Assembly (NCBI GenBank): GCA_021813325.1
Contig: JAKALA010000003.1
Span: 125,114-178,112 of the forward strand
Length of the DNA stretch: 52,999 nucleotides
Source: a bacterium
Lineage (GTDB): Bacteria; Verrucomicrobiota; Verrucomicrobiia; Limisphaerales; UBA11358
Reading direction: 5' to 3'
A model generated the notes under the pieces. It was not told the DNA's origin. It saw nothing but the letters and a program-made list of their open reading frames with translations, and made no database searches. Shown piece by piece: positions 4,980 to 37,134 of this stretch. Each line of letters opens with the position of its first letter. The stretch's first letter is position 1. The position numbers were made by a program, and so were the translations under genes.

Positions 4980-5960
4980 ATGAGCCAATCGTTGAAAGAA
5001 CAAGTCGCGCAAACCACCGCGTGGATTCGCAGTCTGCGCCAGGAAATTTCTCAAGTGATCGTTGGGCAGGAAGCCCTCGTGGACCGGCTTCTGGTCGGCC
5101 TGCTCGCCAACGGCCACGTGTTGCTCGAAGGCGTTCCCGGTCTGGCCAAGACGCTCTCCGTCCGCACGCTCGCGACCGCTGTGCAGGCGAAGTTTAATCG
5201 CATTCAGTTCACGCCCGATTTGCTGCCAGCGGACATCGTGGGCACGCTCATTTACAATCCGCAGGACGGCAAATATCACGCCACGCGCGGCCCGATCTTC
5301 GCGAATTTCGTCCTCGCCGATGAAATCAATCGCGCTCCGGCCAAGGTGCAAAGCGCGTTGCTCGAAGCCATGCAAGAACGGCAGGTCACGCTCGGCGGCG
5401 AGACGATGAAACTGCCGTCTCCGTTTCTCGTGCTCGCCACGGAAAACCCGATTGACCAGGAAGGCACCTATCCGCTGCCCGAGGCACAAGTGGATCGTTT
5501 CATGTTCAAGGTGCTGCTCGATTATCCGAACGAGGCGGAGGAGCGGAAAATTCTCGACCGCATGGCGTTCACCAGTCCCGAAACGCCGGTGAAACCCGTC
5601 GTGTCGCTCGAAGAGATTTTGGCAACGCGCAAGCTGGTGGACCAGATTCACGTGGACGAAAAGGTGCGCGATTACATCGTGAAGATCGTGTTCGCCACGC
5701 GCAAGCCGGCGGATTTCAAGCTGGACGTGACGCATTTCATCCAGTTCGGCGCCTCGCCGCGCGCGACGATTTACCTGACGCTGGCCGCCAAGGCGTGGGC
5801 GCTGCTGCAAGGCCGCGACTACGTGATTCCCGAAGATGTGAAAAACATCGGCCCCGACGTGCTGCGCCACCGGATCATCCTGACCTACGAAGCCGAAGCG
5901 CAGGCCGTGACGACCGACGCGATCATCAAAAAAGTGTTCAACGCCGTGCCGGTGCCGTAA
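4980..5960 (+). CDS. moxR: MoxR-family AAA+ ATPase
   Basis: A 326-residue AAA+ ATPase of the MoxR/RavA branch. Walker A is GVPGLAKT at 51-58, Walker B is VLADEINRAP at 111-120, followed by the MoxR signature AKVQSALLEAMQERQVT and sensor 1 ATENPIDQEGTYPLPEAQ. The C-terminal lid (GASPRATIYLTLAAKAWALL, then YVIPEDVKNIGPDVLRHRI) is complete. MoxR proteins act as chaperone-like ATPases for metal-centre insertion or envelope-complex assembly. They usually sit directly upstream of DUF58 and VWA-domain genes. Here that partner is missing: a decayed ORF and then convergent pdxH follow. Confidence 0.93.
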   Translation: MSQSLKEQVAQTTAWIRSLRQEISQVIVGQEALVDRLLVGLLANGHVLLEGVPGLAKTLSVRTLATAVQAKFNRIQFTPDLLPADIVGTLIYNPQDGKYHATRGPIFANFVLADEINRAPAKVQSALLEAMQERQVTLGGETMKLPSPFLVLATENPIDQEGTYPLPEAQVDRFMFKVLLDYPNEAEERKILDRMAFTSPETPVKPVVSLEEILATRKLVDQIHVDEKVRDYIVKIVFATRKPADFKLDVTHFIQFGASPRATIYLTLAAKAWALLQGRDYVIPEDVKNIGPDVLRHRIILTYEAEAQAVTTDAIIKKVFNAVPVP

Positions 5961-5979
5961 AAATGAAAACAGGCAAAAA

Positions 5980-6426
5980 TTGTCAAATATGAGCGCTAAA
6001 CCCAACGGACTTTTAACTTGGAACATCAACGAGATTTCCAACGCGGTAAGCATTGGAACCGACGATGTTCGGGAGTATTTCACGGACGGGCGGCGTGTGA
6101 GCTTTCTCTTGGAAAGACGTTTGGCATATGAAGTCGAGAAAGGCAAATTGGCTCAAAGCGAAGGTGCGGGATTCGACTTAATTGATTTACAAGGCCGCAA
6201 ATGAGAAGTCCGCAGCACCACGAAAGGCGGCATTCATTTTTGTCCCAGCCACCGTTTGGTGAACCGGGTGCGCGCCCGACGATCGGGTTGTTTTCATCTA
6301 CCACCAATCAATCCCCAAGCGGTGGCTCCTTTTCAACTACATCGTTCCGGCCAAGCGATTCTGTGGCTGAATTATATTGGTGAGAGCGTCGAGAGCAGTG
6401 GCTGCAACTTCAATCCTGGGCGCTAG
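5980..6426 (+). pseudogene. Decayed ORF with in-frame TGA, possible nuclease-like remnant
   Basis: An ORF starting at 5980 (or the ATG at 5989) reads 74 codons to a TGA at 6202-6204. The same frame then continues protein-like (EVRSTTKGGIHFCPS) to a TAG at 6424-6426. A single TGG-to-TGA change would give '...FDLIDLQGRK-W-EVRSTTKGGIHF', a D...E-x-R arrangement like a PD-(D/E)xK nuclease core. The later part is less convincing, and another frame carries 'VVFIYHQSIPKRWLLFNYIV' near 6285-6345, so a frameshift near 6275 is also likely. Its stop shares the palindrome CTAG with the convergent pdxH stop. It could instead be a short intact 74-residue protein. No family is firmly assigned. Confidence 0.45.
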
Positions 6427-7127
6427 GGAGATAGCCGCTCAATTTTCCAAGACCCATCCGATTGGCGGTAATAACAAAACCGATCGTGCAAGCGGCTGGG
6501 ACGTCCCTGCCAAAATTCAATCCGTTCCGGGTTCAAGATAAACCCGCCCCAATTCGGCGGCAGCGGCACTTCGTTGGAAAATTTTTGTTCCAATTCACGC
6601 CATTTGTTTTCCAAAATCCCGCGATTTTGAACGATTTCGCTTTGGTTCGAAGCCCACGCGCCAATCTGGCTGCCGCGCGGACGGCTTTTGAAGTAGGCCT
6701 CCGATTCTGTCACCGGCAATTTTGTCACGGTGCCGGCCACGCAAACCTGGCGTTCCAGCGCCGACCAAAAGAAGGTTAGTGCGGCATGGGGATTCCGGGC
6801 GAGTTCACGGCCTTTGCGGCTGTCATAATTCGTGAAGAAAATAAAACCGCGTGCGTCCACAGATTTCAACAGCACCGTCCGGGTGGAAGGTTTGCCATCG
6901 GCGTCCACGGTTGCCAGGGTCATGGCATTCATGTCGGCCGGGCGATGGTTGCGGATTGCGCTCCAGAGATGGTAAAGGGCGATGCCGATTTTTCGCCAAC
7001 GACTTTGGGACGAGGCGCCGATGGCTTCGCGAAACCACTGCTCAAACTGCGTGAACGGGCTGGCGTTCAACGCCGCGCGATCCAGATCGCCGCGCCGGTA
7101 ATCCTCGCGAAAGTCGCTCAGGTTCAT
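6423..7127 (-). CDS. pdxH: Pyridoxamine 5'-phosphate oxidase
   Basis: A 234-residue FMN-dependent oxidase of the vitamin B6 pathway, converting pyridoxine- or pyridoxamine-5'-phosphate to pyridoxal phosphate. Diagnostic blocks are NAMTLATVDADGKPSTRTVL, FFTNYDSRKGRELARNPHAA, the substrate-binding SRPRGSQIGAWAS, and the C-terminal RIEFWQGRPSRLHDR. It is about 20 residues longer than E. coli PdxH because of extra sequence (RKIGIALYHLWSAIRNHRPA) before the core. The start codon lies one base after the stop of the membrane-protein gene at 7129-7683, implying translational coupling. Confidence 0.96.
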   Translation of the reverse strand: MNLSDFREDYRRGDLDRAALNASPFTQFEQWFREAIGASSQSRWRKIGIALYHLWSAIRNHRPADMNAMTLATVDADGKPSTRTVLLKSVDARGFIFFTNYDSRKGRELARNPHAALTFFWSALERQVCVAGTVTKLPVTESEAYFKSRPRGSQIGAWASNQSEIVQNRGILENKWRELEQKFSNEVPLPPNWGGFILNPERIEFWQGRPSRLHDRFCYYRQSDGSWKIERLSP

Positions 7128-10339: not shown

Positions 10340-13300
10340 CTATTGGTTTAACAATCTCCATACCCGCAACACCTCGGTGGCGCCCCAGGCCTGCGCGTCG
10401 CAGCCGCGCTGCGTGTGCGGCGCATCGCCATCAAGGATTTCGGGAAGCTGGCCAAGGCAGCCTTTGTTGAGAAGGATTTCAGCACTGCCCAGATAACTTT
10501 TTGCCGCCGCGACGGCTGCCGGTGAACCGTTCCACGCCTGAACGAGCGCTTCACAAAACGTCGGGAAGGTCCAGGTCCAGGCGGTGCCATTGTGATAGGC
10601 CGGTTTGCGGCGCGTGTCTTCATCGCCTTCATAGCGCGGACAATACGGTTCCGACGGATTGTTGAGCAAATGTCCGTCGCGCCAGATTGGCTGGGGCACG
10701 GCCAAGGGCAGGGGGGCGAGCGAGCGTAACGCGCCCGGGATGACCAGATGTTTTTGGGCGGCGGCGACGCAGCGTTGCGCACGTTCACCGGTCACCAGTC
10801 CGAGACTGATGGCGAATAGGCAGTTGCTCCGCAGCGCGTCGCTGGGCGTGGCGGCGCGGGCGATGACGCGAGGCGTGGCGATCAACTCGTCGGCAAACCA
10901 GCCTTTGTCCTCGAGCCAGAACAGTTTTTCAAACGAGGTGAACGCGTGTTCGGCGAGGCCGCGCCAGGCGGCCTTTTCGCCGGGCGCGGAAATCTTCTCA
11001 AGCTGGCGCAACAGCCGGATCCACAACACCTGGATCTCGACGGGATACCCTTCGCGCGGCGTGCCGGCGGGATAATTTGTGTCCATCCAGGTGAAGTGGC
11101 TCGGGCTCCAGATCAGCGCGGAGTCGGCATCCATCTGAATGCCGTTGGGCGTGCCTTGGGAATAATTTTTCGCGATGCTTGCCAGCACGTCGCGAATGGT
11201 GCGGCCGGATTCATCCACGGCGACCTCGTAAAATTTCTGGTCGGCCAGATCCTCGCACACCACGGCGAACCAGAGCGGCGCATCCGTCGTATCGCGGTTG
11301 GAAACGTCGTTGCCGTTGATCGTGTTTGGCAGCGTGCCGTCCTTTTCAAACCGGGCGAACGTCAGCAGAATCTGTTTTATCTCATCCACCAGACCGGCGG
11401 CGAGCAGGCCGCGGGCGCAGATGAGCGAGTCGCGGCCCCAGTCCAGAAACCACGGATAGCCGGCGATGACGGTTTTGAAATCATCCCGGCGCACCACGAA
11501 TTGGCGGGCGGCGAACTCCAGTTGTGCGGCAAAGGTGTGCGGCGTCTCCGGGGAATGTTTGTGCGCCGTTTTGGCCGGAAATTCAAGCGAATGCGCGTTG
11601 GTTTCCGCCGTGGCGACGAGCCTTGCCTGCCGGCCTTTGGCCAGGGGCAATTCAAACCAGCCCGGGCTGTAGGCGTCGCCGTGGCCTTCCTGGCCGCGTG
11701 TTTGTTCGACGGGATGGCCAATGTTCTCGCACCATTCCGGCTGCGGATGATACACACCGTGGTTGGCAAACACGCGCAATTGACGATCACTGGCCGGCGT
11801 GAAGGCAAAACCGCTCCGGCCATCCAGCAAGTGCATGTTGGAGGAAAAATGAAAGTCCGCGCCGCCGTTGCGTTTGGTTTCGCAGTGAAAATTTCGATCT
11901 TCAATGTCCACGCGCACCGTCAGCCGCACATCGGCATGCGCCGGCAATTGTTTGCCCACGGCTTTCTTTTCGCTGGGCCGGTTAAACTGAAAAACGACCG
12001 TGTTTTGATTTTCAATCATTTCGGCCCGCAGTTCGATCTCGACCGTGTGGCCGTCGCCGGCATTGGCCACAAATTGCCAAACCGGAGCCGGACCGGCCTG
12101 GAACGCCTTCAAATTTTTAAAATCCAGCGGCGAAAGAAAACCGTCGGCATTGACCCAAACCCGAAGGCGTTTGATAAATACGTGCCGATCCACGGGCACA
12201 CTTGGATGGAGATTCGCGCCCAGCGCGCAATCGTATTTTGATTGAACACGGCCAAAATCCACGGCCAGGCGCGCCATGCCGCCGCGATGATTCGTCAGCA
12301 AAACGAGCGAGTCAGCCGGCGGCAACGAGGCGTGGAATTCGGGATAATGGGGTTCGGCGGTCAAGAAACGGACGGTCGCCGAAACGGTTTGGGGCAACGC
12401 TCCATGCCGTTCCAAAGACAAGGTTGCATCGCCGCCAGCGGCCCGGGGAGCGAAACAGGCGACATGCCTCTTGCCGGCGGGAATGGATTGCACATGCACC
12501 GGCGGAACCTTGCCATCACAATGATTTTCGTTGGCGCTCGTTAGATCCAAGGTTGCGCGGAAAGGTGTTTCATCCTGAATGAGGAGCCAGTGATCCGGCG
12601 GCACAAGACTGATCCGGCGGGCATCCGGCAAATTCCAAGTGACGACGCGCGGATAAAATTTCAATTCAGAGACGGTGAGCAGCGCGGACAAGGTGGCTTG
12701 GGTTTTCCCGATGGCGTATTCGCTGGCGGCGGCGAGGAAATTTTGGGGCGAACGTTCCACCTGTTGCGCGAGCCAAAGCCAGTCCAGACCATCGACGGTT
12801 TCAATCGGGATGATTTTGCTCAAGGCTTCAATGGCAAATGCCGCCTGGGCGCGCGCCCGACGGTATTGATCGCCGCCGAGGCCGGCGGGGTTGGCGGTTT
12901 CAGCCAGGCAATAAACCGCACCCGCGGCGAGCGCGAACGTCATCTGCTCTTTTTCGTTGGTAATTTGGGGCAATGGTTGGCCGAGCAAGTCAACGGCGGT
13001 GGGCAGATTTGGGAAGGCCGCCTTGGAAATCGAAAGGGTGTGCTCCTGGTCAATGACGGTGTTGGCCAGCATCAGCACGGAATCCTTGCCTTCGGCGGAT
13101 TCGCGGAGCAAAGCGTAAACGGGGGAGTCAGACGCACTCACGCGGGTTAGCCGGGCCCCGTCAAAAAAACAGGGGTGATCGGAAACCAGACGGTTCAGAC
13201 GCGCCAGTTCGGCCACGAGATTGTCCGGATTTCCCCAATTCAAGCCGGTATGGCCATGCACGCGGATCTTCTCGGTGGCCAGCCATTCCACGCCGCAGGT

Positions 13301-14650
13301 GAAGCCAAATCCGCCGCTGGGGCTGGCCAAGGCGCAGAGCTGATTTCGCAGCAGCGACCAGGTGCGACCTTTCTTGGCCAGCCGGTCATTGTCGTGCGTT
13401 TCCGAGTAATGAACGTAGCTGCCGACATGCAGGCTTTGCTGATTGGCGTAGTCAAGATAGCCGGCGACGTCGCGTCCGGAATAATTTTGAAACAACTCGG
13501 AATAGGCCCATTGCAGGCCGCCTTCGGTGAGCAAACTTTCGGTGGCCGCCCAGGAGCCGCCCAGGCCTTCGAGCAGAAAAATCGTTTCGGGGAATTCTTC
13601 CTGAACGCGGGCGATGATGTATTGCCAGGCGGTGGTGGGAATTTTGTAGCCGGCATCGCAGCGAAACCCATCAACTCCGCGCCGGCACCAAATGAGCAGC
13701 GAATCGGCGATGATATCCCAGAGCTGGACGTCGTGTTGCTCCAGTTCCACCAAATCTTCCCAGACGGTTCCCCACGCGCCGGGACTGGCGAAGGCACCAT
13801 CAGGTTTCTTCAGAAAAAATTGCGGATATTGCTCCTGCAAGGTTGAACCCCAGCCGGTGTGGTTGATGACGATGTCAATGAACACGCGCGCCCCCAGTGA
13901 ATGGGCTTCCCGGGTGAGTTCGCAGAACTGGTCGATGCCGGTGGCGCGTTGATCGAAGTCAATTAACGCGGGATCCACGGCGGTTAAATCGAGCGCGGCG
14001 TAGGGGCTGCCAAAGCGGCCGAACCGGGCGTAGGTGGTCGGCGTCGGATGCACGGGCAGCAAATGAATGATGCGGCATCCAAGCCGTTGAATGATGTGCG
14101 GCAATTGGCGGGTGAGATCGCGGAATTTGCCGCTGGGCGGCAGGGTGGCGTAGCCGAGCGCTTCGAGTGATTTTAATTGGGCTTCCAATTTCCGATCTTC
14201 CGTGGTGGCCAGATTTTTGGTGGAGCCAAACAAGCGGGTGAAGGCGCAATAAATGGTGTTGGCCGTGCGGGTGAAATTGGGATGAACAGAGATGCCGACG
14301 TCCGATCCATCGGGCCAGTGTTGCCAGCCTTTTTCATCCAGCAGATAGGGTTTGGCTTTGAAGAAGCCGACCTCCGCCAGCGGCAGTTCGATTTGCCAGC
14401 CGTGGCCGGTTTCTTGCATTGGTAGATCACGCCACGAAGCGCCGGCCGTGGCGGCGCCTCCGGCGTGAGCGGCGATGATTTCGCGCCGCCGGGCGGCGGC
14501 CCGGCCGAGATTGGTGCGCAGGCGCGCGGACCATTGTTTGTCGGGGCCGGGAAGCTGGCCGGCTTGCAGGGTGAATTGAAGCTTGTCGCCGACGAAGCGC
14601 GCCAGGCGTTCGCCGGGCACGGGTGACATGGTTGGTCTGAGTTGTTCCAC
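10340..14650 (-). CDS. Two-domain glycogen debranching enzyme (GH13 plus GH133)
   Basis: A 1436-residue bifunctional debranching enzyme similar in plan to eukaryotic AGL. The N-terminal half is a GH13 4-alpha-glucanotransferase: region I DIVINH at 259-264, region II GVDGFRCDAG at 325-334 with nucleophile Asp332, acid/base Glu361 in FLLEGLGG, and region IV SETHDN at 416-421. The C-terminal third is an amylo-alpha-1,6-glucosidase (GDE_C, GH133), with the FLDWGRDSLICARG block near residue 1068 and GTLPNTINGNDVSNRDTTDA soon after. It transfers maltosyl/maltotriosyl stubs and then hydrolyses the alpha-1,6 branch of glycogen in the cytosol. The start is the GTG at 14650 or the ATG at 14629; no strong RBS decides between them. 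It is divergent from the pilB operon. Confidence 0.9.
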   Translation of the reverse strand: MEQLRPTMSPVPGERLARFVGDKLQFTLQAGQLPGPDKQWSARLRTNLGRAAARRREIIAAHAGGAATAGASWRDLPMQETGHGWQIELPLAEVGFFKAKPYLLDEKGWQHWPDGSDVGISVHPNFTRTANTIYCAFTRLFGSTKNLATTEDRKLEAQLKSLEALGYATLPPSGKFRDLTRQLPHIIQRLGCRIIHLLPVHPTPTTYARFGRFGSPYAALDLTAVDPALIDFDQRATGIDQFCELTREAHSLGARVFIDIVINHTGWGSTLQEQYPQFFLKKPDGAFASPGAWGTVWEDLVELEQHDVQLWDIIADSLLIWCRRGVDGFRCDAGYKIPTTAWQYIIARVQEEFPETIFLLEGLGGSWAATESLLTEGGLQWAYSELFQNYSGRDVAGYLDYANQQSLHVGSYVHYSETHDNDRLAKKGRTWSLLRNQLCALASPSGGFGFTCGVEWLATEKIRVHGHTGLNWGNPDNLVAELARLNRLVSDHPCFFDGARLTRVSASDSPVYALLRESAEGKDSVLMLANTVIDQEHTLSISKAAFPNLPTAVDLLGQPLPQITNEKEQMTFALAAGAVYCLAETANPAGLGGDQYRRARAQAAFAIEALSKIIPIETVDGLDWLWLAQQVERSPQNFLAAASEYAIGKTQATLSALLTVSELKFYPRVVTWNLPDARRISLVPPDHWLLIQDETPFRATLDLTSANENHCDGKVPPVHVQSIPAGKRHVACFAPRAAGGDATLSLERHGALPQTVSATVRFLTAEPHYPEFHASLPPADSLVLLTNHRGGMARLAVDFGRVQSKYDCALGANLHPSVPVDRHVFIKRLRVWVNADGFLSPLDFKNLKAFQAGPAPVWQFVANAGDGHTVEIELRAEMIENQNTVVFQFNRPSEKKAVGKQLPAHADVRLTVRVDIEDRNFHCETKRNGGADFHFSSNMHLLDGRSGFAFTPASDRQLRVFANHGVYHPQPEWCENIGHPVEQTRGQEGHGDAYSPGWFELPLAKGRQARLVATAETNAHSLEFPAKTAHKHSPETPHTFAAQLEFAARQFVVRRDDFKTVIAGYPWFLDWGRDSLICARGLLAAGLVDEIKQILLTFARFEKDGTLPNTINGNDVSNRDTTDAPLWFAVVCEDLADQKFYEVAVDESGRTIRDVLASIAKNYSQGTPNGIQMDADSALIWSPSHFTWMDTNYPAGTPREGYPVEIQVLWIRLLRQLEKISAPGEKAAWRGLAEHAFTSFEKLFWLEDKGWFADELIATPRVIARAATPSDALRSNCLFAISLGLVTGERAQRCVAAAQKHLVIPGALRSLAPLPLAVPQPIWRDGHLLNNPSEPYCPRYEGDEDTRRKPAYHNGTAWTWTFPTFCEALVQAWNGSPAAVAAAKSYLGSAEILLNKGCLGQLPEILDGDAPHTQRGCDAQAWGATEVLRVWRLLNQ

Positions 14651-28216: not shown

Positions 28217-29563
28217 ATGACGCCCGAGAATTTTCAAAATCAATTGTTGGATTCGGTGCCGGACGGCGTGTTCACCGTGGACGCCGATTGGCGCGTCACG
28301 TTCTTCAACCAGGCGGCGGAACGGATCACCGGGATTCGCCGGAACGAAGCGCTGGGGCGCCGCTGCTGCGAGGTTTTTCGCGCGTCCATTTGCGAAAGCG
28401 CCTGCGCGCTCAAACAGACCCTGACAACCCGCCGGCAGGTCAGCAACAAGGTGGTTTACATTGTCAACGCCCAAGGAGAGCGCATTCCCATCAGCATTTC
28501 CACGGCGCCGCTCAAGGATGCCCGGGGCCGCGTGGTTGGCGGGGTGGAAAGTTTTCGCGATTTGCGGCTGGTCAACGAATTGCGGCAGCAGGCCGAACAG
28601 CAGGATTCCTTTTCCGACATCATCGGGCGCAGCGCCGCCATGCGGCAGTTGTTTGATTTGATGCCGCTGGTGGCGGAGAGCGACAGCACCGTGTTGATCG
28701 AAGGTCCGAGCGGCACGGGCAAGGAACTGTTCGCCCGGGCGCTGCACCAGCTTTCGCGCCGGCAGCAACAGCCGTTTGTGGCCATCAACTGTGGCGCGCT
28801 GCCCGACACGCTGTTGGAAAGCGAATTGTTTGGCTACAAAGCCGGGGCGTTCACCGACGCGCGCAAGGACAAGCCGGGCCGTTTTGCGCTGGCCGAAGGC
28901 GGCACCATTTTGCTGGATGAAATCGGCGATATTTCGCCCGCCATGCAGACGCGGTTGCTGCGGGTCTTGCAGGAACGGGTTTATGAACCGCTCGGCAGCG
29001 TGGTGCCGGTGCGTTGTGATGTGCGGGTGATCGCGGCCACCAACAGATCGCTGACTTCGTTGGTGCGGGCGGGAAAATTTCGCGAAGACCTGTATTACCG
29101 TGTGCATGTGGTGCGGCTGGAATTGCCGCCGTTGCGGTCCCGGCGGGAGGATCTCCCGCCGCTGGTGGAGCATTTCGTGACGCGCTTCAACCGGCTCAAG
29201 GGACGCGATATTGCCGGCCTGTCGGATGCGGCGTTGGCGCGGTTGATGGAATATGATTTTCCCGGCAACGTGCGCGAATTGGAAAACATCATCGAACATG
29301 CCTTTGTGCTTTGTCGGGGAGGATTGATTGAGCCGCTTCATTTGCCGCCGCAATTGCGCGGCGAAAGCGGCGGCTTGCCCTCGCATTTGCCGGGAGGAAT
29401 GACGCTTGCAGTCATGGAAAAATTGCTGATTCAGGACGCGTTGAAACGGCATCAAGGCAACCGGGCTGCCGCCGCCCGGGAACTGGGCATGGACCCCAGC
29501 ACGCTGTTCCGCAAGATCAAGTCGCTCAAACTCGCCAAACCGACACCTGAGATAAGCCTCTGA
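28217..29563 (+). CDS. PAS-domain sigma-54-dependent transcriptional activator
   Basis: A 448-residue enhancer-binding protein. An N-terminal PAS domain (about 8-125) carries four cysteines at 50, 51, 59 and 63 (GRRCCEVFRASICESAC), a pattern that suggests redox or metal-cluster sensing. The AAA+ domain has Walker A GPSGTGKE at 163-170, Walker B ILLDEI at 231-236 and the sigma-54-contacting loop as GAFTDA at 210-215, with Asp in place of the second Gly of GAFTGA; this variant occurs in functional activators. A Fis-type helix-turn-helix (GNRAAAARELGMDPSTLFRK) is at the C-terminus. There is no receiver domain, so sensing is probably direct. Palindromic sites lie upstream of it and of neighbouring operons. 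Confidence 0.93.
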   Translation: MTPENFQNQLLDSVPDGVFTVDADWRVTFFNQAAERITGIRRNEALGRRCCEVFRASICESACALKQTLTTRRQVSNKVVYIVNAQGERIPISISTAPLKDARGRVVGGVESFRDLRLVNELRQQAEQQDSFSDIIGRSAAMRQLFDLMPLVAESDSTVLIEGPSGTGKELFARALHQLSRRQQQPFVAINCGALPDTLLESELFGYKAGAFTDARKDKPGRFALAEGGTILLDEIGDISPAMQTRLLRVLQERVYEPLGSVVPVRCDVRVIAATNRSLTSLVRAGKFREDLYYRVHVVRLELPPLRSRREDLPPLVEHFVTRFNRLKGRDIAGLSDAALARLMEYDFPGNVRELENIIEHAFVLCRGGLIEPLHLPPQLRGESGGLPSHLPGGMTLAVMEKLLIQDALKRHQGNRAAAARELGMDPSTLFRKIKSLKLAKPTPEISL

Positions 29564-29925: not shown

Positions 29926-29942
29926 TTGGAACACGGCCTGCT
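29926..29942 (+). promoter_or_regulatory. Candidate sigma-54 promoter of the 16-haem cytochrome gene
   Basis: TTGGAACACGGCCTGCT: GG at 29928-29929, ten bases, GC at 29940-29941, close to TTGGCAC-N5-TTGCT with one mismatch in the -24 box. Predicted start about 29953, 52 bases before the ATG. The 441-bp gap 29564-30004 holds this promoter, sites b1/b2, the activator terminator and a CCGCG / CGCGG inverted repeat (29891-29913); I see no gene in it. Confidence 0.55.
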
Positions 29943-30004
29943 TCCCGGTCGATAATCTCCGCGGTTCACAACCCAAACTGCGGTCCATTCAGAACCTGAA
30001 ACTC

Positions 30005-33000
30005 ATGAAAAACCATCACTTCCGGCCCAGGACGGCCTTGCTCGCCATGGCGGGATTTCTTTTGGTCCAGGTGCCGGCGGCGCTTGCGCAATACAATCTC
30101 CACACGCTGATTGACACCAACAATTACACCGGCACAGCCACCTGCCTGCAATGCCACGGCGCCGGCGGATTGATCATCGGGCCGGATCGGGCGGCGGAAG
30201 TCATGTCGGGGGTGCATTGGACCTGGGTTCATACCAACACACCCACAGGACAGGCGTCGCAGGTGATGGGCAAGCGGAATATCATCAACAATTACTGCAT
30301 TGCCGTGCCCTCCAACGAGCCGCGCTGCACGAGTTGCCACATCGGCCTCGGCTGGCGCGACAACACGTTCGATTTTCACAATCCCACCAACATTGACTGT
30401 CTGGTTTGTCACGACACCACCGGTGCCTACAAAAAGACGCCGACCGGCGCCGGCTTGCCTGATCCCAGTGTGAATTTGATCAATGTGGCCAAGCACGTCG
30501 GCAAAACCAGCCGGGCTTCGTGCGGTTCCTGCCACTTTTATGGAGGCGGCGGCGACGGGGTGAAACACGGCGACCTCGATTCCAGCCTCACGAATCCGAC
30601 GCGCGATCTGGATGTTCACATGGGCGTGGACGGCGCGAACATGACCTGTGCCAATTGTCACCAATCCACGGAACCGGGCGCCAGCGCGCATGATTTGGTC
30701 GGCTCGCGTTATTCCAAGGCACACCCGGACAACTGGCTGTGCGAAGATTGTCACTCCTCCACGCCGCACGTGAATGTGAACAACGGCATTTATTATGACG
30801 GCCATGCGAGTCGCGTCGCCTGCCAGACCTGTCACGTGCCCTATTTCGCCCGCGGCGGCAAACCCACGAAGATGAGTTGGGACTGGTCCACGGCGGGCCG
30901 CAAGGATACCAATGGCGCGGCGCTGACCATCAAGGACGCGGATGGCAATGTCACTTACGACACCATGAAAGGCACGTTTACCTGGGCGCAAAATGTCACG
31001 CCGGATTACGTCTGGTTCGATGGCAATGTCATTTGGATGGAACTGACTAACCAGATTGATCCCACGCGGATGGTGACGCTGAATGCGCTGCAAGGCAGCA
31101 TCAGCGAGACCCAGGCGCGGATCATGCCGGTCAAACGCTTCACCGCCGTGCAGCCTTACGACGCCGGGAAAAATGTTCTGGTCATCCCGCATTTGTTTCC
31201 AACCAACGCCACGGACACGGCCGCCTACTGGAAAGGTTACAATTGGACCAACGCCATCAACGCCGGCATGGCCTCCGTGGGGCAGACCTTCAGCGGCCAG
31301 ATGGGCTGGGTGAACACCGAAATGTATTGGGTGGAAAATCACATGGTCGCGCCGAAGGAAGAAGCGCTCACCTGTCTGGATTGTCATTCGCCCAACGGAC
31401 GGATTCCGTTCGCCAAACTTGGCTACGCCGCCAATCGCGTCGCCCAGTTGACCAATCTCAACATGATCATCGGGTTGGATCACACGGGGCGTTTCGGCAC
31501 CAATTTCGCGGGGTCGGCCGCGTGTCTGGATTGCCACCCGAACCAGGCGTCCGAAGTCATGGGCAGCGTGCATTACCTCTGGCGCACGACCAATCCGCAC
31601 CTGGCCTATCCCGGCGGCGGTTCGCACGGCATGTTGGACCGGTTCTGCGGCCTGGTCGGCTCCAGTTCGATGGTCAATTATTTCGCCGACTTTGGCGGGC
31701 ACAAAACTTCGGCGGCTTGCGGTAAATGTCATGTGGGCGATTCCCTGCCGCTGCCCAGCCCGGCGACGGGACAATTTACGCAAGCGCAGACCAACGGCTT
31801 GGACTGCTTGATCTGCCACGCCTCGGCCGGCAATTACGACATGAACGGCGACGGCCTTTACACGACCGACGACGAGAATGCCGCCAATCGCGCGCTCTTG
31901 ACCAACTCCGTGACCGGCCGCCGCGAGTGGTTCCAGGACCATTCTTTGCGCGCCGCCGAAAGTGTCGGCCAACCGGTGGGCGCCGCGCAGTGTCTGCGTT
32001 GCCATGAACACGGCCAGGCGGCGGCGGATTACAAGCGGGGCACCCCGTTTGATCCGGCGCACGACGTGCATGCGGCGGCGGGCTTGAAATGCACCGATTG
32101 CCACAAGGTGGATCATCACAAGATCGCCCGTGGTTCGCGGGTCACGGACATGCATGCTTGGGAACGGCAGAACGTGGAGGTTACCTGTGTGAACTGCCAC
32201 AGCGCCACCGCGCCGCACACCGACCCGAAGCTGGCCATGTATAATCAACATCTCTCCACCATCGCGTGCGAAACCTGTCACATTCCGTGGACTTCCGGCG
32301 CGCTGCGCCGCATTTGGGCGCCCACCTACGGTGTCACCGATGGTCCCGAGGCGAACATTCCCGCTTGGAACGCCACCACCGAGACATACGAGCCTTACAG
32401 CGTTTACAGCGGCGAATACACTTTGCGGCCGGTGTATCGCTGGTATGGCGGCAACGAAAGCATGCTGGCCGAACCCGTCAACAACGTGACCGCCTGGGAC
32501 GGGCAGATTGCCACGAAGAGTTCGCCCGGCGCGAAAATTTTCCCGTTCCGCTCGATTGTCAACGGCATGATTTTGGATCGCCGGGGTTTCGGTTATGCTC
32601 CGAATTTCAACACCAACTTCACCATGCTGGCGGCGATGGATGCGATGGCGGGTCCGCTCAAACAGATGGGCTTCATGCGGGCCAGCGGCTTGACTCCGCC
32701 GGAACGCGCGGCCCTGGCGCAATATCCGAATCTGCTCAACTTCGACGAGGAAACGTATCTTCATACCGGCGACATCAAGGAAGCGGTCAACATTGGTTTG
32801 GGCCGTCAAGCGGTGATGATGTCGGGCGGCGACCCGTCCGCCATGAGCAGCGGCCAGCTCAGCGTGGTCGGCGCCAATTTCTGGAGCGGCGAGGTGCTTG
32901 GCTTGGACATGCCCAACAACCCGGCGGATCCGACGTATGATCCCGCAGCGCCCCCCACGCAGGCCACCGGCTCGTTTATTAGTTTGAGCCATGCCGTCAA

Positions 33001-33346
33001 ACTGCAAGGCGCACTGACCTGTGCGGATTGTCATTCGACGGCCAGCGTGCTCAACTTCAAGGCGCTGAACTACTCGCCAGCGCAAACGGCCTACCTGGAA
33101 ACTCTGCTGAATAATGTGCAATTGTTGACCAGCCAGATGACCGCCTCCGGACTCAAGCTGAATTGGGCCACCATACCCGGTCGCAATTATCAGGTGCAGA
33201 CCTGCACCAACCTGCAAGGCGGATTGTGGGAGGCGGTGACCACGAACGTGCCGGCGAGCACCTTGCAAATGGAAACTGTGGTTCCACCAAATCAACTGGG
33301 GGCCGAACCGCAACGGTTCTTCCGCGTCATGGAAACCACGCCATAG
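30005..33346 (+). CDS. 16-haem c-type cytochrome, duplicated octahaem tetrathionate reductase (OTR) family
   Basis: A 1113-residue exported multihaem cytochrome with signal peptide ending PAALAQ (residue 29). Sixteen CxxCH motifs are visible, at 47, 108, 132, 173, 215, 246, 273, 457 and again at 507, 572, 601, 663, 696, 728, 755, 1006. Both sets have seven close haems and a distant eighth, so this is a tandem duplication of an eight-haem unit. Unit 1 carries the OTR-family signatures (GKRNIINNYC, NEPRCTSCH, DCLVCHDTTGAYKK, CHFYGGGGDGVKHGDLDSSL, TKMSWDWSTAG). Family members reduce tetrathionate, nitrite or hydroxylamine in the periplasm. In unit 2 the Lys-bearing GKRNIINN block is replaced by GGSHGMLDRF, so it may serve electron transfer only. 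Residues 1050-1113 form a non-haem beta module (KLNWATIPGRNYQVQTCTNL), an unusual fusion. Confidence 0.92.
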   Translation: MKNHHFRPRTALLAMAGFLLVQVPAALAQYNLHTLIDTNNYTGTATCLQCHGAGGLIIGPDRAAEVMSGVHWTWVHTNTPTGQASQVMGKRNIINNYCIAVPSNEPRCTSCHIGLGWRDNTFDFHNPTNIDCLVCHDTTGAYKKTPTGAGLPDPSVNLINVAKHVGKTSRASCGSCHFYGGGGDGVKHGDLDSSLTNPTRDLDVHMGVDGANMTCANCHQSTEPGASAHDLVGSRYSKAHPDNWLCEDCHSSTPHVNVNNGIYYDGHASRVACQTCHVPYFARGGKPTKMSWDWSTAGRKDTNGAALTIKDADGNVTYDTMKGTFTWAQNVTPDYVWFDGNVIWMELTNQIDPTRMVTLNALQGSISETQARIMPVKRFTAVQPYDAGKNVLVIPHLFPTNATDTAAYWKGYNWTNAINAGMASVGQTFSGQMGWVNTEMYWVENHMVAPKEEALTCLDCHSPNGRIPFAKLGYAANRVAQLTNLNMIIGLDHTGRFGTNFAGSAACLDCHPNQASEVMGSVHYLWRTTNPHLAYPGGGSHGMLDRFCGLVGSSSMVNYFADFGGHKTSAACGKCHVGDSLPLPSPATGQFTQAQTNGLDCLICHASAGNYDMNGDGLYTTDDENAANRALLTNSVTGRREWFQDHSLRAAESVGQPVGAAQCLRCHEHGQAAADYKRGTPFDPAHDVHAAAGLKCTDCHKVDHHKIARGSRVTDMHAWERQNVEVTCVNCHSATAPHTDPKLAMYNQHLSTIACETCHIPWTSGALRRIWAPTYGVTDGPEANIPAWNATTETYEPYSVYSGEYTLRPVYRWYGGNESMLAEPVNNVTAWDGQIATKSSPGAKIFPFRSIVNGMILDRRGFGYAPNFNTNFTMLAAMDAMAGPLKQMGFMRASGLTPPERAALAQYPNLLNFDEETYLHTGDIKEAVNIGLGRQAVMMSGGDPSAMSSGQLSVVGANFWSGEVLGLDMPNNPADPTYDPAAPPTQATGSFISLSHAVKLQGALTCADCHSTASVLNFKALNYSPAQTAYLETLLNNVQLLTSQMTASGLKLNWATIPGRNYQVQTCTNLQGGLWEAVTTNVPASTLQMETVVPPNQLGAEPQRFFRVMETTP

Positions 33347-33392
33347 GCAGCCTTTGTAGCCTTTGTTGTTGCTGTTAACCCAACAGCCACCA

Positions 33393-33426
33393 CCCCGGGT
33401 CTCCGCCGCAAGGAGCCCGGGGTTTT
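33393..33426 (+). terminator. Strong rho-independent terminator after the cytochrome gene
   Basis: The stem CCCCGGG-t-CTCC / GGAG-CCCGGGG has a seven-base loop (GCCGCAA) and is followed by TTTT. It is 47 bp after the cytochrome stop, so the downstream NifX-like genes need their own promoter. Confidence 0.85.
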
Positions 33427-33451
33427 CGTTTGCGCCGCTGGCGTTGACCAT

Positions 33452-33467
33452 GGCAGTTTGCCATGCC
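33452..33467 (+). promoter_or_regulatory. Activator-type palindromic site c1
   Basis: GGCAGTTTGCCATGCC inside a longer perfect palindrome ATGGCA-GTT-TGCCAT (33450-33464). It is the best site of the set, 31 bp before c2 and centred 127 bp from the sigma-54 promoter at 33582. Confidence 0.7.
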
Positions 33468-33482
33468 GGCCGGTGGTCCGCT

Positions 33483-33498
33483 GGCGTTTCGCCATGCG
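33483..33498 (+). promoter_or_regulatory. Activator-type palindromic site c2
   Basis: GGCGTTTCGCCATGCG, inverted repeat TGGCG-TTT-CGCCA with the same ATGC flank as c1. It is centred 96 bp upstream of the GG of the sigma-54 promoter. A further half-like copy (GCGCCATGCC) follows at 33502-33511. Confidence 0.65.
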
Positions 33499-33581
33499 CT
33501 GGCGCCATGCCGTCCGGTATTTATTGGGCTAAATCCGTTGTTTATCAGCGGAATTTGCCGTTCGCTCGCATTTTCTCGCGG

Positions 33582-33598
33582 CTGGCACGTTCGTTGCG
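33582..33598 (+). promoter_or_regulatory. Sigma-54 promoter of the NifX-like operon
   Basis: CTGGCACGTTCGTTGCG matches the sigma-54 consensus YTGGCACG-N4-TTGCW except the last base: GG at 33584-33585, ten bases, GC at 33596-33597. The predicted start near 33609 is only two bases before the GTG start codon at 33611, implying a near-leaderless message. Two palindromic sites lie 96 and 127 bp upstream. Confidence 0.8.
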
Positions 33599-33610: not shown

Positions 33611-34036
33611 GTGACGGTAGCTATTCCCATTTGGCAGCAACGCGTGTCGCCCGTCCTCGACACGGCGGCGCGTTTGCTGGTGGTCACCTGCCGCGACGGC
33701 CGGGAAGCCAGCCGGCGAGAAGTCGGATTGAGTCCGGCCGCGCCGGAAGAATTTGCCCGCCGAATCGTTGAACTCGGCGTGGACATGCTCCTGTGCGCCG
33801 CGCTCTCGCTCGAACTCCGCCACGCGCTGGAACACGTGGGAGTGCGCCTTCGCCCGCACCTGTGCGGGGATACGGAAGCCATTTTAACGGCGCTCTGTCA
33901 TAATCAACTGGATCAGCCGGAATTCCGCATGCCCGGTTGCCGGAAAAACCACCGGGGAACCAAGGTCTGTCACCGCCGCTCCGCGCATGTGCTTAAAGCG
34001 AATTTTAATAAAACCACATCCTCATCAAAACCATGA
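33611..34036 (+). CDS. NifX/NifB-type cofactor-binding domain protein (first of a pair)
   Basis: A 141-residue protein starting at GTG 33611. The opening TVAIPIWQQRVSPVLDTAAR is the start of the dinitrogenase iron-molybdenum cofactor (NifX/NifY/NafY/NifB C-terminal, PF02579-type) domain, so the start is well placed. The core continues through AAPEEFARRIVELGVDMLLC to about residue 100. A basic tail has the motif FRMPGCRKNHRGTKVCHRR, with Cys and His that could hold metal. Such proteins carry or transfer Fe-S/Mo cofactors or simply bind metal; no nif structural genes are in the window. It overlaps the next gene by four bases (ATGA). Confidence 0.8.
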   Translation: MTVAIPIWQQRVSPVLDTAARLLVVTCRDGREASRREVGLSPAAPEEFARRIVELGVDMLLCAALSLELRHALEHVGVRLRPHLCGDTEAILTALCHNQLDQPEFRMPGCRKNHRGTKVCHRRSAHVLKANFNKTTSSSKP

Positions 34037-34476
34037 CCACGACTGGCCCGCATTCAAAGACTGAGATAAATACTGTTCGCATTGCCATCCCCGTTTCGAA
34101 TGGTCGTTTGCATGGGCACTTCGGGGGTTGCCGCGAGTTCATGCTGGTGGATGCAGACACGCAGAGTCTGACGGTTTCGGCCACGCAGACTTTGCCCGCG
34201 CCTGCGCATACCCCCGGAGCGTTTCCCAAGTGGCTGCGGGAGCAAGGCGCGCGGGTGGTCATTGCCGGTGGCATTGGCCGGCGTGCGCTCGACATTTTTA
34301 CACTGCACGGCATCGTCGTCGTGGCTGGCGAGGTGAATGCCCGGGTGGAAGTGCTGGTGGCGGCCTATTTAGCTGGAATGCTGACCGGATCTCCAGTGGC
34401 GTGCGCCCATCACGGACAGCAGCATGACCACGAACATGAACATAACCACGACCACTGCGCCCCGCATGATCATTGA
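34033..34476 (+). CDS. NifX/NifB-type domain protein with His-rich tail
   Basis: A 147-residue protein of the same PF02579-type fold: VRIAIPVSNGRLHGHFGGCR at about residue 15, then WLREQGARVVIAGGIGRRAL. The GHFG motif is the cofactor/metal contact in small family members. The C-terminal 25 residues are rich in His and Asp (AHHGQQHDHEHEHNHDH), a metal-buffering tail typical of Ni/Zn/Co handling proteins. It is translationally coupled to the preceding paralogue by an ATGA overlap and followed 41 bp later by the ZIP transporter. The pair may form a heterodimer. Confidence 0.85.
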   Translation: MTTTGPHSKTEINTVRIAIPVSNGRLHGHFGGCREFMLVDADTQSLTVSATQTLPAPAHTPGAFPKWLREQGARVVIAGGIGRRALDIFTLHGIVVVAGEVNARVEVLVAAYLAGMLTGSPVACAHHGQQHDHEHEHNHDHCAPHDH

Positions 34477-35457: not shown

Positions 35458-37134
35458 ATGGATTTTGCCATGGAACGAAAACGAATTGTCATTGTTGGCG
35501 GGGTCGCGGCGGGCGCCAGTGCCGCCGCCCGCGCCCGTCGCCGGTCGGAAGCCGCTGAAATTGTGCTGATTGAGCGCGGACCGGATGTGTCTTTCGCGAA
35601 CTGCGGTCTGCCGTATTTCATCGGCGGCGAGATCAAGCAGCGCGAGGCGCTCGCGGTGCAGACACCGCAGACGCTCAAAGCGATGCTCGCCTTGGACGTG
35701 CGCACGAGCACCGAAGCGATGGCGATAGATCGTGCCGGCAAACGGGTGCATATCCGTTCGCTCGCCAGCGGCACTGAAGCCTGGCTGGCGTATGACCGTT
35801 TGATTCTGGCGCCGGGAGCCGTGCCGGTGCGGCCACCGCTGCCGGGCATTGATGATCCGCGCATTTTCACGCTGCGTTCCTTGGCGGACATGGACCGGAT
35901 TAAAGCGGCGGCGGCCAGCGCCCGGCGCATTGCCGTGATCGGCGCGGGCTTCATCGGTTTGGAAATGGCCGAACAATTTGTGCATCTCGGCAAGCAGGTC
36001 GCTTTGATTGAAATGCTGAATCAAATTTTGCCGCCGCTCGACCGGCCCATGACGATGCTGATGGAAGACGAGCTTAAACGACGCGGCGTGGAATTGATCG
36101 TGAACGACGGCATTGAAAGTTTTGCCGCCGAAAATACTTTGACATGCCGGCTGAAATCAGGCCGCACAGTGTCGGCGGATTTGGTGGTGTTGAGCATCGG
36201 CGTGCGGCCGGACACGGCGCTGGCCAAGGCGGCCGGGCTGGAACTCGGCCCGCGCGGTCACATTCGCGTGAATGGTTTCATGCAAACCAGCGATCCGGAA
36301 ATTTACGCCGCCGGCGATGCCGTGGAAGTGAAAGATTTGTTGACCGGCGAACCAACGGCGGTTCCGCTGGGCGGCCCCGCCAATCGTCAGGGACGTCTGG
36401 CGGCTGATCATATTTTTCATCCCGAGCAAACCCAGCCCTACACCGGCGCGCTGGGCACGGCCATTGTGCGGGCTTTCGACATTGCCGCCGGACTGACCGG
36501 CTGGTCGGAAAAGCGGCTCCAAGCCGCGAAGCGCGCCTATCGCACCGTGACGGTGAATGACAATCATCATGCGGGCTATTATCCGGGCGCGAAGCCCATG
36601 TTGCTCAAATTGCTTTGGGAACCGGCCACGGGCCGGGTGCTCGGCGCGCAGGCCACCGGTTTTCTCGGCGTGGACAAACGGCTCGATGTGCTGGCCACGG
36701 CGATTGCCGGCGGCATGACGATTGATGATCTGGCACAACTGGAGTTGTCCTATGCGCCGCCATTTGGTTCGGCCAAGGACATCGTTAATCTTGCCGCGTT
36801 TACCGCCATCAACGCGCGGGATGGTTTGGTGACTCCGGTTGACGCGATTCCCGATGATCCGAGCATTCAAGTGGTGGATACGCGTCCCGCCCCGCTTGCG
36901 CAGGCGCATCCGTTGACCCAAGTGCGGGCCATCAATATCCCGCTGGCGGCTCTGCGACAACGACTCGGTGAACTGGACCGGAATCGTCCCGTAGTCACGG
37001 TTTGCGCCTTCGGCAAGACCGCCTATTTCGCCGCGCGGATATTGGCTCAAAACGGATTTAACGTGTCCACGCTGACCGGCGGCATTCGCGCGCATTTTGA
37101 TCCGCGGACGCCGGCCAAATTGCCCACGCCTTGA
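35458..37134 (+). CDS. CoA-disulfide reductase-like flavoprotein with rhodanese domain
   Basis: A 558-residue FAD/NAD(P)-dependent pyridine nucleotide-disulfide oxidoreductase. The FAD-binding VGGVAAGASAAARARR lies near 12-27, the single-cysteine active site SFANCGLPYFIGG uses Cys49, the NAD-binding IAVIGAGFIGLEMAE is near 160, and the FAD contact EIYAAGDAVEV is near 285. A C-terminal rhodanese-like domain (about 460-550) has VCAFGKTAYFA, with Cys516 in the active loop. Relatives reduce CoA disulfide, CoA persulfide or polysulfide. This places sulfur or persulfide chemistry in the locus. A second start, ATG 35470, is possible. Confidence 0.9.
   Translation: MDFAMERKRIVIVGGVAAGASAAARARRRSEAAEIVLIERGPDVSFANCGLPYFIGGEIKQREALAVQTPQTLKAMLALDVRTSTEAMAIDRAGKRVHIRSLASGTEAWLAYDRLILAPGAVPVRPPLPGIDDPRIFTLRSLADMDRIKAAAASARRIAVIGAGFIGLEMAEQFVHLGKQVALIEMLNQILPPLDRPMTMLMEDELKRRGVELIVNDGIESFAAENTLTCRLKSGRTVSADLVVLSIGVRPDTALAKAAGLELGPRGHIRVNGFMQTSDPEIYAAGDAVEVKDLLTGEPTAVPLGGPANRQGRLAADHIFHPEQTQPYTGALGTAIVRAFDIAAGLTGWSEKRLQAAKRAYRTVTVNDNHHAGYYPGAKPMLLKLLWEPATGRVLGAQATGFLGVDKRLDVLATAIAGGMTIDDLAQLELSYAPPFGSAKDIVNLAAFTAINARDGLVTPVDAIPDDPSIQVVDTRPAPLAQAHPLTQVRAINIPLAALRQRLGELDRNRPVVTVCAFGKTAYFAARILAQNGFNVSTLTGGIRAHFDPRTPAKLPTP

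Follow-up and report, generated by a model that had tools for sequence, protein, structure and literature searches.

The gene and its two octahaem units

The stretch of DNA analysed here, called the window, comprises 52,999 nucleotides of contig JAKALA010000003.1 (assembly GCA_021813325.1) from a bacterium of the Limisphaerales (Verrucomicrobiota), and lies on contig C7 of a 4.28 Mb genome (G000). Within it we found a gene for a 1113-aa protein with 16 CxxCH haem-binding motifs, arranged as two co-linear sets of eight and followed by a C-terminal beta-type tail. The two sets mark two units (U1 and U2) of the octahaem tetrathionate reductase (OTR) clan, and the gene is referred to below as the double. 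Its features are as follows.

30005..33346, + strand: 16-haem double-OTR gene, open reading frame of 1113 aa
30005..30088, + strand: Sec-type signal peptide, residues 1–28 (ending PAALA, with Q next), judged by eye only
30089..31468, + strand: U1, residues 29–488, OTR with eight haems (TIGR04315 and 1SP3 matches)
30296..30298, + strand: C98 of U1, aligned to C64 of 1SP3
30326..30340, + strand: U1 haem-2 motif CTSCH, residues 108–112, predicted catalytic haem (motif and alignment)
30563..30565, + strand: K187 of U1 (in GVKHG), aligned to K153 of 1SP3
31469..33139, + strand: U2, residues 489–1045, divergent OTR-clan unit with eight haems (1SP3 and model match)
31646..31648, + strand: C548, U2 counterpart of C98 (alignment)
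31718..31732, + strand: U2 haem-2 motif CGKCH, residues 572–576, predicted second catalytic haem (motif and alignment)
32033..32035, + strand: K677, U2 counterpart of K187 (alignment)
33140..33343, + strand: C-terminal module, residues 1046–1113, common in the window genome (tail profile)

The motifs start at residues 47, 108, 132, 173, 215, 246, 273 and 457 in the first set and 507, 572, 601, 663, 696, 728, 755 and 1006 in the second, which bears out the original prediction of two eights with the same spacing plan and distant eighth haems at 457 and 1006. U1 and U2 matched each other with 26% identity (BLASTP E = 2e-18). Their Smith-Waterman score of 241 lay far beyond those of 500 shuffles that kept the CxxCH positions (mean 71, sd 12, maximum 113), so the likeness of the units exceeds their common haem motifs. 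An assembly artefact was ruled out, as each of three other assembled genomes gave a single match running through U1, U2 and the tail (72%, 68% and 60% identity). An open antisense frame of 1180 codons (window 29966–33508, − strand) spans the entire gene and is probably a shadow frame; relatives have similar antisense frames.

All 16 motifs are CxxCH, and none is of the CxxCK type, which we take to be the catalytic motif of the pentahaem nitrite reductase NrfA. The long CX(n)CH motif of SirA/MccA-type octahaem sulfite reductases, presumably CX15CH at their catalytic haem, was also sought; the sole C-X(3-17)-CH stretch starts at C98 and merely overlaps CTSCH at 108. A further protein of the window genome with eight CxxCH motifs (L001, G000:C99:146742-147581) matched the Pfam family Multi-haem_cyto (E 1.1e-21).

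Identity and fold of each unit

The whole protein matched the Shewanella oneidensis OTR structure 1SP3 with an E-value of 5.5e-110 across residues 46–477, that is in U1, and 1SP3 was the only PDB chain matching at E ≤ 0.01. U1 scored 520.5 bits against TIGR04315, the NCBIfam model for OTR, which is above the curated cut-off of 375. It is 43% identical to 1SP3 and shares its features: eight CxxCH motifs, K187, C98, D184, six aligned distal histidines and the N-terminal histidine H33.

The best solved relative of U2 was again 1SP3 (phmmer E 2.7e-20). Structure prediction of this second half, proposed beforehand as a check, yielded a low-confidence model for which 1SP3 was the sole PDB match at E ≤ 0.001 (Foldseek E 1.1e-11). 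When the model was compared by VIA-align with the 8 chains ranked highest by Foldseek, it superposed on 1SP3 with Z = 17.1 and a root-mean-square deviation of 3.6 across 363 residues. As far as this low-confidence model shows, U2 would adopt the OTR fold with eight co-linear haems. The earlier claim that a single chain holds a pair of octahaem units of OTR type is borne out.

Residues at the predicted catalytic haems

The position of K153 in 1SP3 held the sole invariant lysine of a 42-row alignment. Lysine was present there in 11/11 U1 rows, 7/8 U2 rows and 78/78 other OTR-clan singles, whilst cysteine occupied the position of C64 in 11/11, 7/8 and 71/78, respectively. In these counts the N-terminal half of one unusual double (L123, described below) was tallied apart from the 11 U1 rows, and the 78 singles were collected by similarity to U2. 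The numbers C64 and D150 in 1SP3, and the active-site roles of that Cys and Asp, are assumed here. The distal histidines at positions 38, 171, 190, 218, 226 and 400 were kept in 11/11 U1 and 8/8 U2 rows, and the N-terminal histidine (H33 in U1, H493 in U2) was near-invariant in the 42-row alignment. From the alignment, we take the invariant lysine of the clan (K187 and K677) to be the haem-2 ligand in both units. Haem II is given as the catalytic haem of OTR (PMC4484225), and the role of haem 2 in the OTR clan is described with its lysine named just as a "highly conserved Lys" (PMC11024163).

The original prediction had located the lysine in a GKRNIINN block before haem 2 of U1, set against GGSHGMLDRF in U2. 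The difference between the blocks is real, but the GKRNIINN lysine (K56 in 1SP3) is Ser in 8/8 U2 rows and not Lys in 9/78 singles, and so is not the invariant one of the clan, which sits in GVKHG. A haem-2 lysine ligand in unit 1 only was likewise not borne out, given that K187 and K677, and C98 and C548, correspond by alignment. With Lys and Cys in both halves, both would have the same active-site haem. This undercuts the suggested split into a catalyst and a conduit, which thereby loses its basis without being disproved.

One relative, L123 (G523, contig C71, 7927-11292), is a 16-haem protein with a different N-terminal half and a U2-type C-terminal half. The Lys position holds Ser and Asn in its two halves and the Cys position Ser and Ala; this sole case of residue loss thus affected Lys and Cys in both halves together. 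The gene adjoins one for an MtrC/MtrF-like 9-haem protein with TSP3 repeats, and L123 is plausibly a conduit derivative of an enzyme.

Fusion of two paralogous lineages

The best matches of U1 lie among Shewanella and alphaproteobacterial OTRs, well above U2. In a 99-row quick tree, U1 sequences grouped with OTRs of Shewanella and Rhodobacterales behind a branch of length 1.68 (Shimodaira–Hasegawa-like approximate likelihood ratio test support 100), with the U2 sequences across it. A tree that forced nine U1 rows and eight U2 rows from the order into one clade was 113 log units worse (approximately unbiased test, p-AU = 4.4e-5). This test took 9/11 U1 rows of the order; L129 and L130, placed with Rhodobacterales by the tree, and the N-terminal half of L123 were left out, a choice made after the tree was seen. 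Quick-type trees were used for the main tree, the one-clade test and the test of the L123 half described below. L100 and L101 (short) and L022 (on the same contig as G578, and so not counted as an extra case) were dropped before alignment and trees, and the decahaem L124 and L131 were dropped from the trees. The other singles in the tree were sampled by likeness to U2 and are thus biased, with 1SP3 as an independent anchor.

The double gene is thus a fusion of two old OTR-clan paralogues, as U1 and U2 are not sisters and each unit is found without the other in relatives. The recent tandem duplication that had been proposed was rejected: U1 shares 43% identity with 1SP3 as against 26% with U2, the one-clade tree failed and the units occur apart.

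The history of the fusion may be more complex. One clade was rejected for the U2 of five doubles (p = 0.018) and for the U1 of four doubles, from which the N-terminal half of L123 was excluded (p = 0.021). A position of that half inside the OTR clade was not rejected (p = 0.494), yet its best matches are other OTR singles. Fusion, splitting or exchange may have occurred repeatedly, or a single fusion may have been followed by splits or exchange, or the singles may have come from a double.

Distribution of the units

A U2 search of 320 genomes of the order identified 8 carriers at E ≤ 1e-25. Doubles were present in 5/320 genomes: U2 followed a canonical U1 in four, namely the window genome, G599, G578 and G566, and in G523 it followed the different OTR-type half of L123. 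The remaining U2 genes, in G454, G432 and G394 (L119, L121 and L122), were stand-alone 8-haem genes with a tail and, by eye, a signal-like start; they were 61–63% identical to U2 and kept the Lys and Cys. U1-type genes without a second unit in frame were found at L120, L125, L126, L127, L129 and L130, the last of these in G578, which also holds a double. A further U1-type gene, L128, is truncated by a contig edge. When every candidate was scored in 13 genomes, no U1 was detected in G394, and in G432 (85% complete) just the U2 cross-match was seen. As these two carry U2 without U1, it appears that U2 can work without U1.

Among the same-genus genomes listed, 0/20 had U2, so the distribution of U2 is patchy. 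A contig scan with two peptide patterns retained 80 of the 86 relatives it met; the haem-1 stretch of one double, L118, lies outside the first pattern, so doubles may also exist beyond the order. No further doubles were found among the loci returned from a sample of the phylum (387 genomes, at most three candidates scored in each). A genome of that phylum holds a protein identical to one in a Kiritimatiellales record, a group placed in the Verrucomicrobiota, the phylum taken for the window genome in the GTDB sense. Distant stand-alone relatives of U2 came from Acidobacteriota (L024, L189 and L190), and the phylum of the L024 genome gave no doubles in 396 genomes (at most three candidates each; frames of at least 641 aa all opened, shorter ones partly). 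One acidobacterial contig (L161, in G705) carries an OTR-type gene at 5075-6748 and a U2-like gene at 12081-13577, about 5.3 kb apart, possibly an unfused pair.

Relatives of other layouts were also seen. In the phylum of the L024 genome, L184:2191-5502, L185:2171-5437 and L186:3-3266 are frames of 1088–1104 aa with 13–14 haems. The Pfam order in L185 and L186 is NrfD (a membrane subunit), then c3/c7-type haems, then OTR, apparently a single chain that links an OTR to a subunit serving the quinone pool; L184 was outside the Pfam scan. A 7-haem family of the same phylum as the window genome (L006–L012, L015–L017 and L021) has frames of roughly 700–1,000 aa with, by eye, C-terminal hydrophobic stretches, and matches U2 just around haems 4–7. 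L005, a stand-alone OTR-clan protein, has CX4CH at the haem-6 place, not CxxCH.

The C-terminal module

A profile built from eight tails matched 27 places in the window genome at E ≤ 0.01, its own tail included, and 18 of the 20 other matches read out have a stop codon no more than 8 residues from their end. U1-only and stand-alone U2 relatives also end in the tail. The module noted earlier is thus present, but as a general C-terminal module of the window genome; the idea that it is a special addition to this protein was rejected by its frequency. It may serve in export or anchoring.

Neighbouring genes and a possible promoter

The following features surround the gene.

28217..29563, + strand: PAS-AAA(sigma-54)-Fis activator, 80% identical to its counterpart beside the double of G599
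29927..29941, + strand: weak -24/-12-like site with 2 mismatches, last base 64 before the ATG (background level alone)
33583..33597, + strand: exact -24/-12 sigma-54 consensus TGGCACN5TTGC just before the NifX-like pair, sole exact match in the window
33611..34476, + strand: two Nitro_FeMo-Co (NifX-like) genes, the first scoring 18.4, below the Pfam cut-off of 26.3 (syntenic in L116, with 51% and 71% identity)
35458..37134, + strand: pyridine-nucleotide disulfide oxidoreductase-rhodanese fusion, of CoA-disulfide-reductase/Npsr type by domain make-up

Other downstream genes encode a ZIP transporter, a C_GCAxxG_C_C protein, a thioredoxin and a Cons_hypoth698 protein. The G599 locus keeps the activator and the NifX-like pair (51% and 71%), along with an MBL-fold gene at 65% identity and the rhodanese fusion at about 82%. 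Ten-haem OTR-type frames were recorded at L124:7562-10900, L131:2777-5146, L036, L037, L067 and L071; each of the first three carries a gene for a sigma-54 activator that shares about 40% identity with the one in the window.

Sigma-54 sites with up to 2 mismatches numbered 84 in the window against 87.65 expected, and 28 in L116 against 29.36 expected. Both counts are at background, so only exact -24/-12 matches carry weight. In 100 random sequences with the dinucleotide make-up of the window, exact matches averaged 0.21 per 53 kb, with up to 2. The sole exact match in L116 ends 67 bases before the OTR ATG, and a one-mismatch site precedes its NifX-like gene. Upstream of the other doubles no good site was found (best 2–3 mismatches).

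The rhodanese fusion had one match per genome in 12/13 genomes. It lies near a U1-type gene in three, at 2.1 kb in the window genome, about 3.4 kb in G599 and about 90 bases in G454, in two different arrangements. By its domains the window fusion would be of the NADH-dependent persulfide reductase type, an enzyme proposed for sulfur respiration (PMC7969121). Together the sigma-54 activator, the NifX-like pair and the CoA-disulfide-reductase/rhodanese gene point weakly to sulfur chemistry.

Proposed function and alternatives

We put at about 0.6 the probability that the fused double is a dual-site reductase whose sites would draw on a common haem pool. Gene fusion joined a canonical OTR to the divergent unit of a second lineage; compared with their stand-alone counterparts, U1 seems to have shed its tail at the join and U2 its signal peptide. 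The product would probably be exported and loaded with 16 c-haems, both units keeping their putative bis-His ligands and a haem 2 with Lys and a nearby Cys. A periplasmic donor would reduce the protein, and electrons would spread over one haem pool to two haem-2 sites, the pockets of which would differ chemically (U1 has an Asp ahead of the Lys where U2 has Ala). Small oxidised sulfur species of the tetrathionate or polysulfide type would be the likelier substrates, with nitrite or hydroxylamine as the alternative, and the adjacent sigma-54 activator probably governs transcription.

A number of results weigh against a dual-site reductase. U2 scored 140.8 bits against TIGR04315, under the cut-off, and at the D150 position, where U1 has D184, it has A674; U2 may thus act on another substrate or on none. 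The D150 position is variable among the other singles (D in 10/78). The U2 model, built from the 42-row alignment, was of low confidence (predicted local distance difference test score, pLDDT, 56.3; predicted template modelling score, pTM, 0.62), and a model of the full-length double from 8 alignment rows had a pLDDT of 36.0 and a pTM of 0.28, so no packing of the two haem chains was readable. That K153 is the haem-2 lysine ligand of 1SP3 is our assumption, the residue number having been sought in open papers and not found. Nine further carriers had the rhodanese fusion on another contig or, in G483, 3.6 Mb off, and two of the five doubles (L117 and L118) had no listed neighbour in common with the window except the cytochrome.

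A dual-site enzyme could instead have a physiological role in nitrogen chemistry, reducing nitrite or hydroxylamine to ammonium. The Shewanella OTR is described as reducing nitrite, hydroxylamine and tetrathionate (PMC4484225). The NrfA match of the window genome is just partial (24 bits), so that a substitute would make sense, and the genome has the further octahaem Multi-haem_cyto protein as well as NifX-like genes beside the double. The NifX-like domains are not diagnostic, however, the nearby genes for the rhodanese fusion and a thioredoxin speak for sulfur, and G523 and G454 hold a full NrfA alongside U2-type genes; we regard a nitrogen role as possible but doubtful. Rather less likely is pure electron transfer, in which the 16-haem chain would conduct or store electrons in the periplasm or outside the cell and catalyse no physiological reaction. 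L123, which lost Lys and Cys in both halves beside an MtrC/MtrF-like gene, would fit this, as would MtrC/MtrF-domain (PF22113) matches in 13/13 genomes, 10 of them above the cut-off, though the E. coli control matches too. Lys and Cys are nevertheless kept in both units of 4/5 doubles, which are 60–72% identical to the window protein overall. Of the 4 PF22113 matches in the window genome, one is U2 itself and all fall short of the cut-off, and no MtrC-like protein was seen among ten window proteins examined.

An internal wire, in which an OTR was duplicated in tandem with U1 remaining catalytic and U2 becoming an electron conduit, we consider improbable. U2 has diverged from OTR (25–26% identity), is without the Asp and the GK..IINN block and falls under the family cut-off, and the OTR relative MmcA provides a precedent for service as a conduit (PMC11024163). 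Against this, U1 and U2 are not sisters, U2 retains haem 2, the invariant Lys and the Cys whereas MmcA is without haem 2 and Lys, G432 and G394 carry U2 without U1, and L123 lost its residues in both halves, not one. Most speculative, and very improbable, is a single-chain two-reaction machine with two sites at different potentials on one 16-haem wire, one oxidising and the other reducing sulfur or nitrogen intermediates; if true, disproportionation or comproportionation would be balanced inside the protein, with no need of an external carrier.

Comparison with known systems

In the titles and abstract openings of the literature searched, no OTR-OTR fusion was found, nor did the literature consulted give a name or described function for the U2 lineage. 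The joining of two old OTR-clan lineages, each with a Lys-haem site, offers a handle on the role of the clan. As single U1, single U2, a double with both sites and a double with both erased (L123) occur within one order, a shift between catalysis and conduction is testable there.

The window protein is set apart by description from Hmc of sulfate reducers, which we take to be made of cytochrome c3-like modules and not OTR. Hmc likewise has 16 haems in one chain (PMC8840924), and in the literature consulted an MtrA-like protein of MBNT15 was the other 16-haem cytochrome described. MmcA of Methanosarcina, an OTR-related heptahaem conduit, belongs to the same clan, and unlike it both window units keep haem 2 and the Lys. 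The stand-alone U2-type octahaem cytochromes are unfused to OTR and have their own signal-like N-terminus (by eye) and tail. A further comparison is with the Shewanella oneidensis OTR, which U1 resembles in its eight haems, its Lys, Cys and Asp positions and its overall sequence, and U2 in haem order, Lys, Cys and, by the low-confidence model, fold. That enzyme is one 8-haem unit; the window double has another such unit and a C-terminal module besides.

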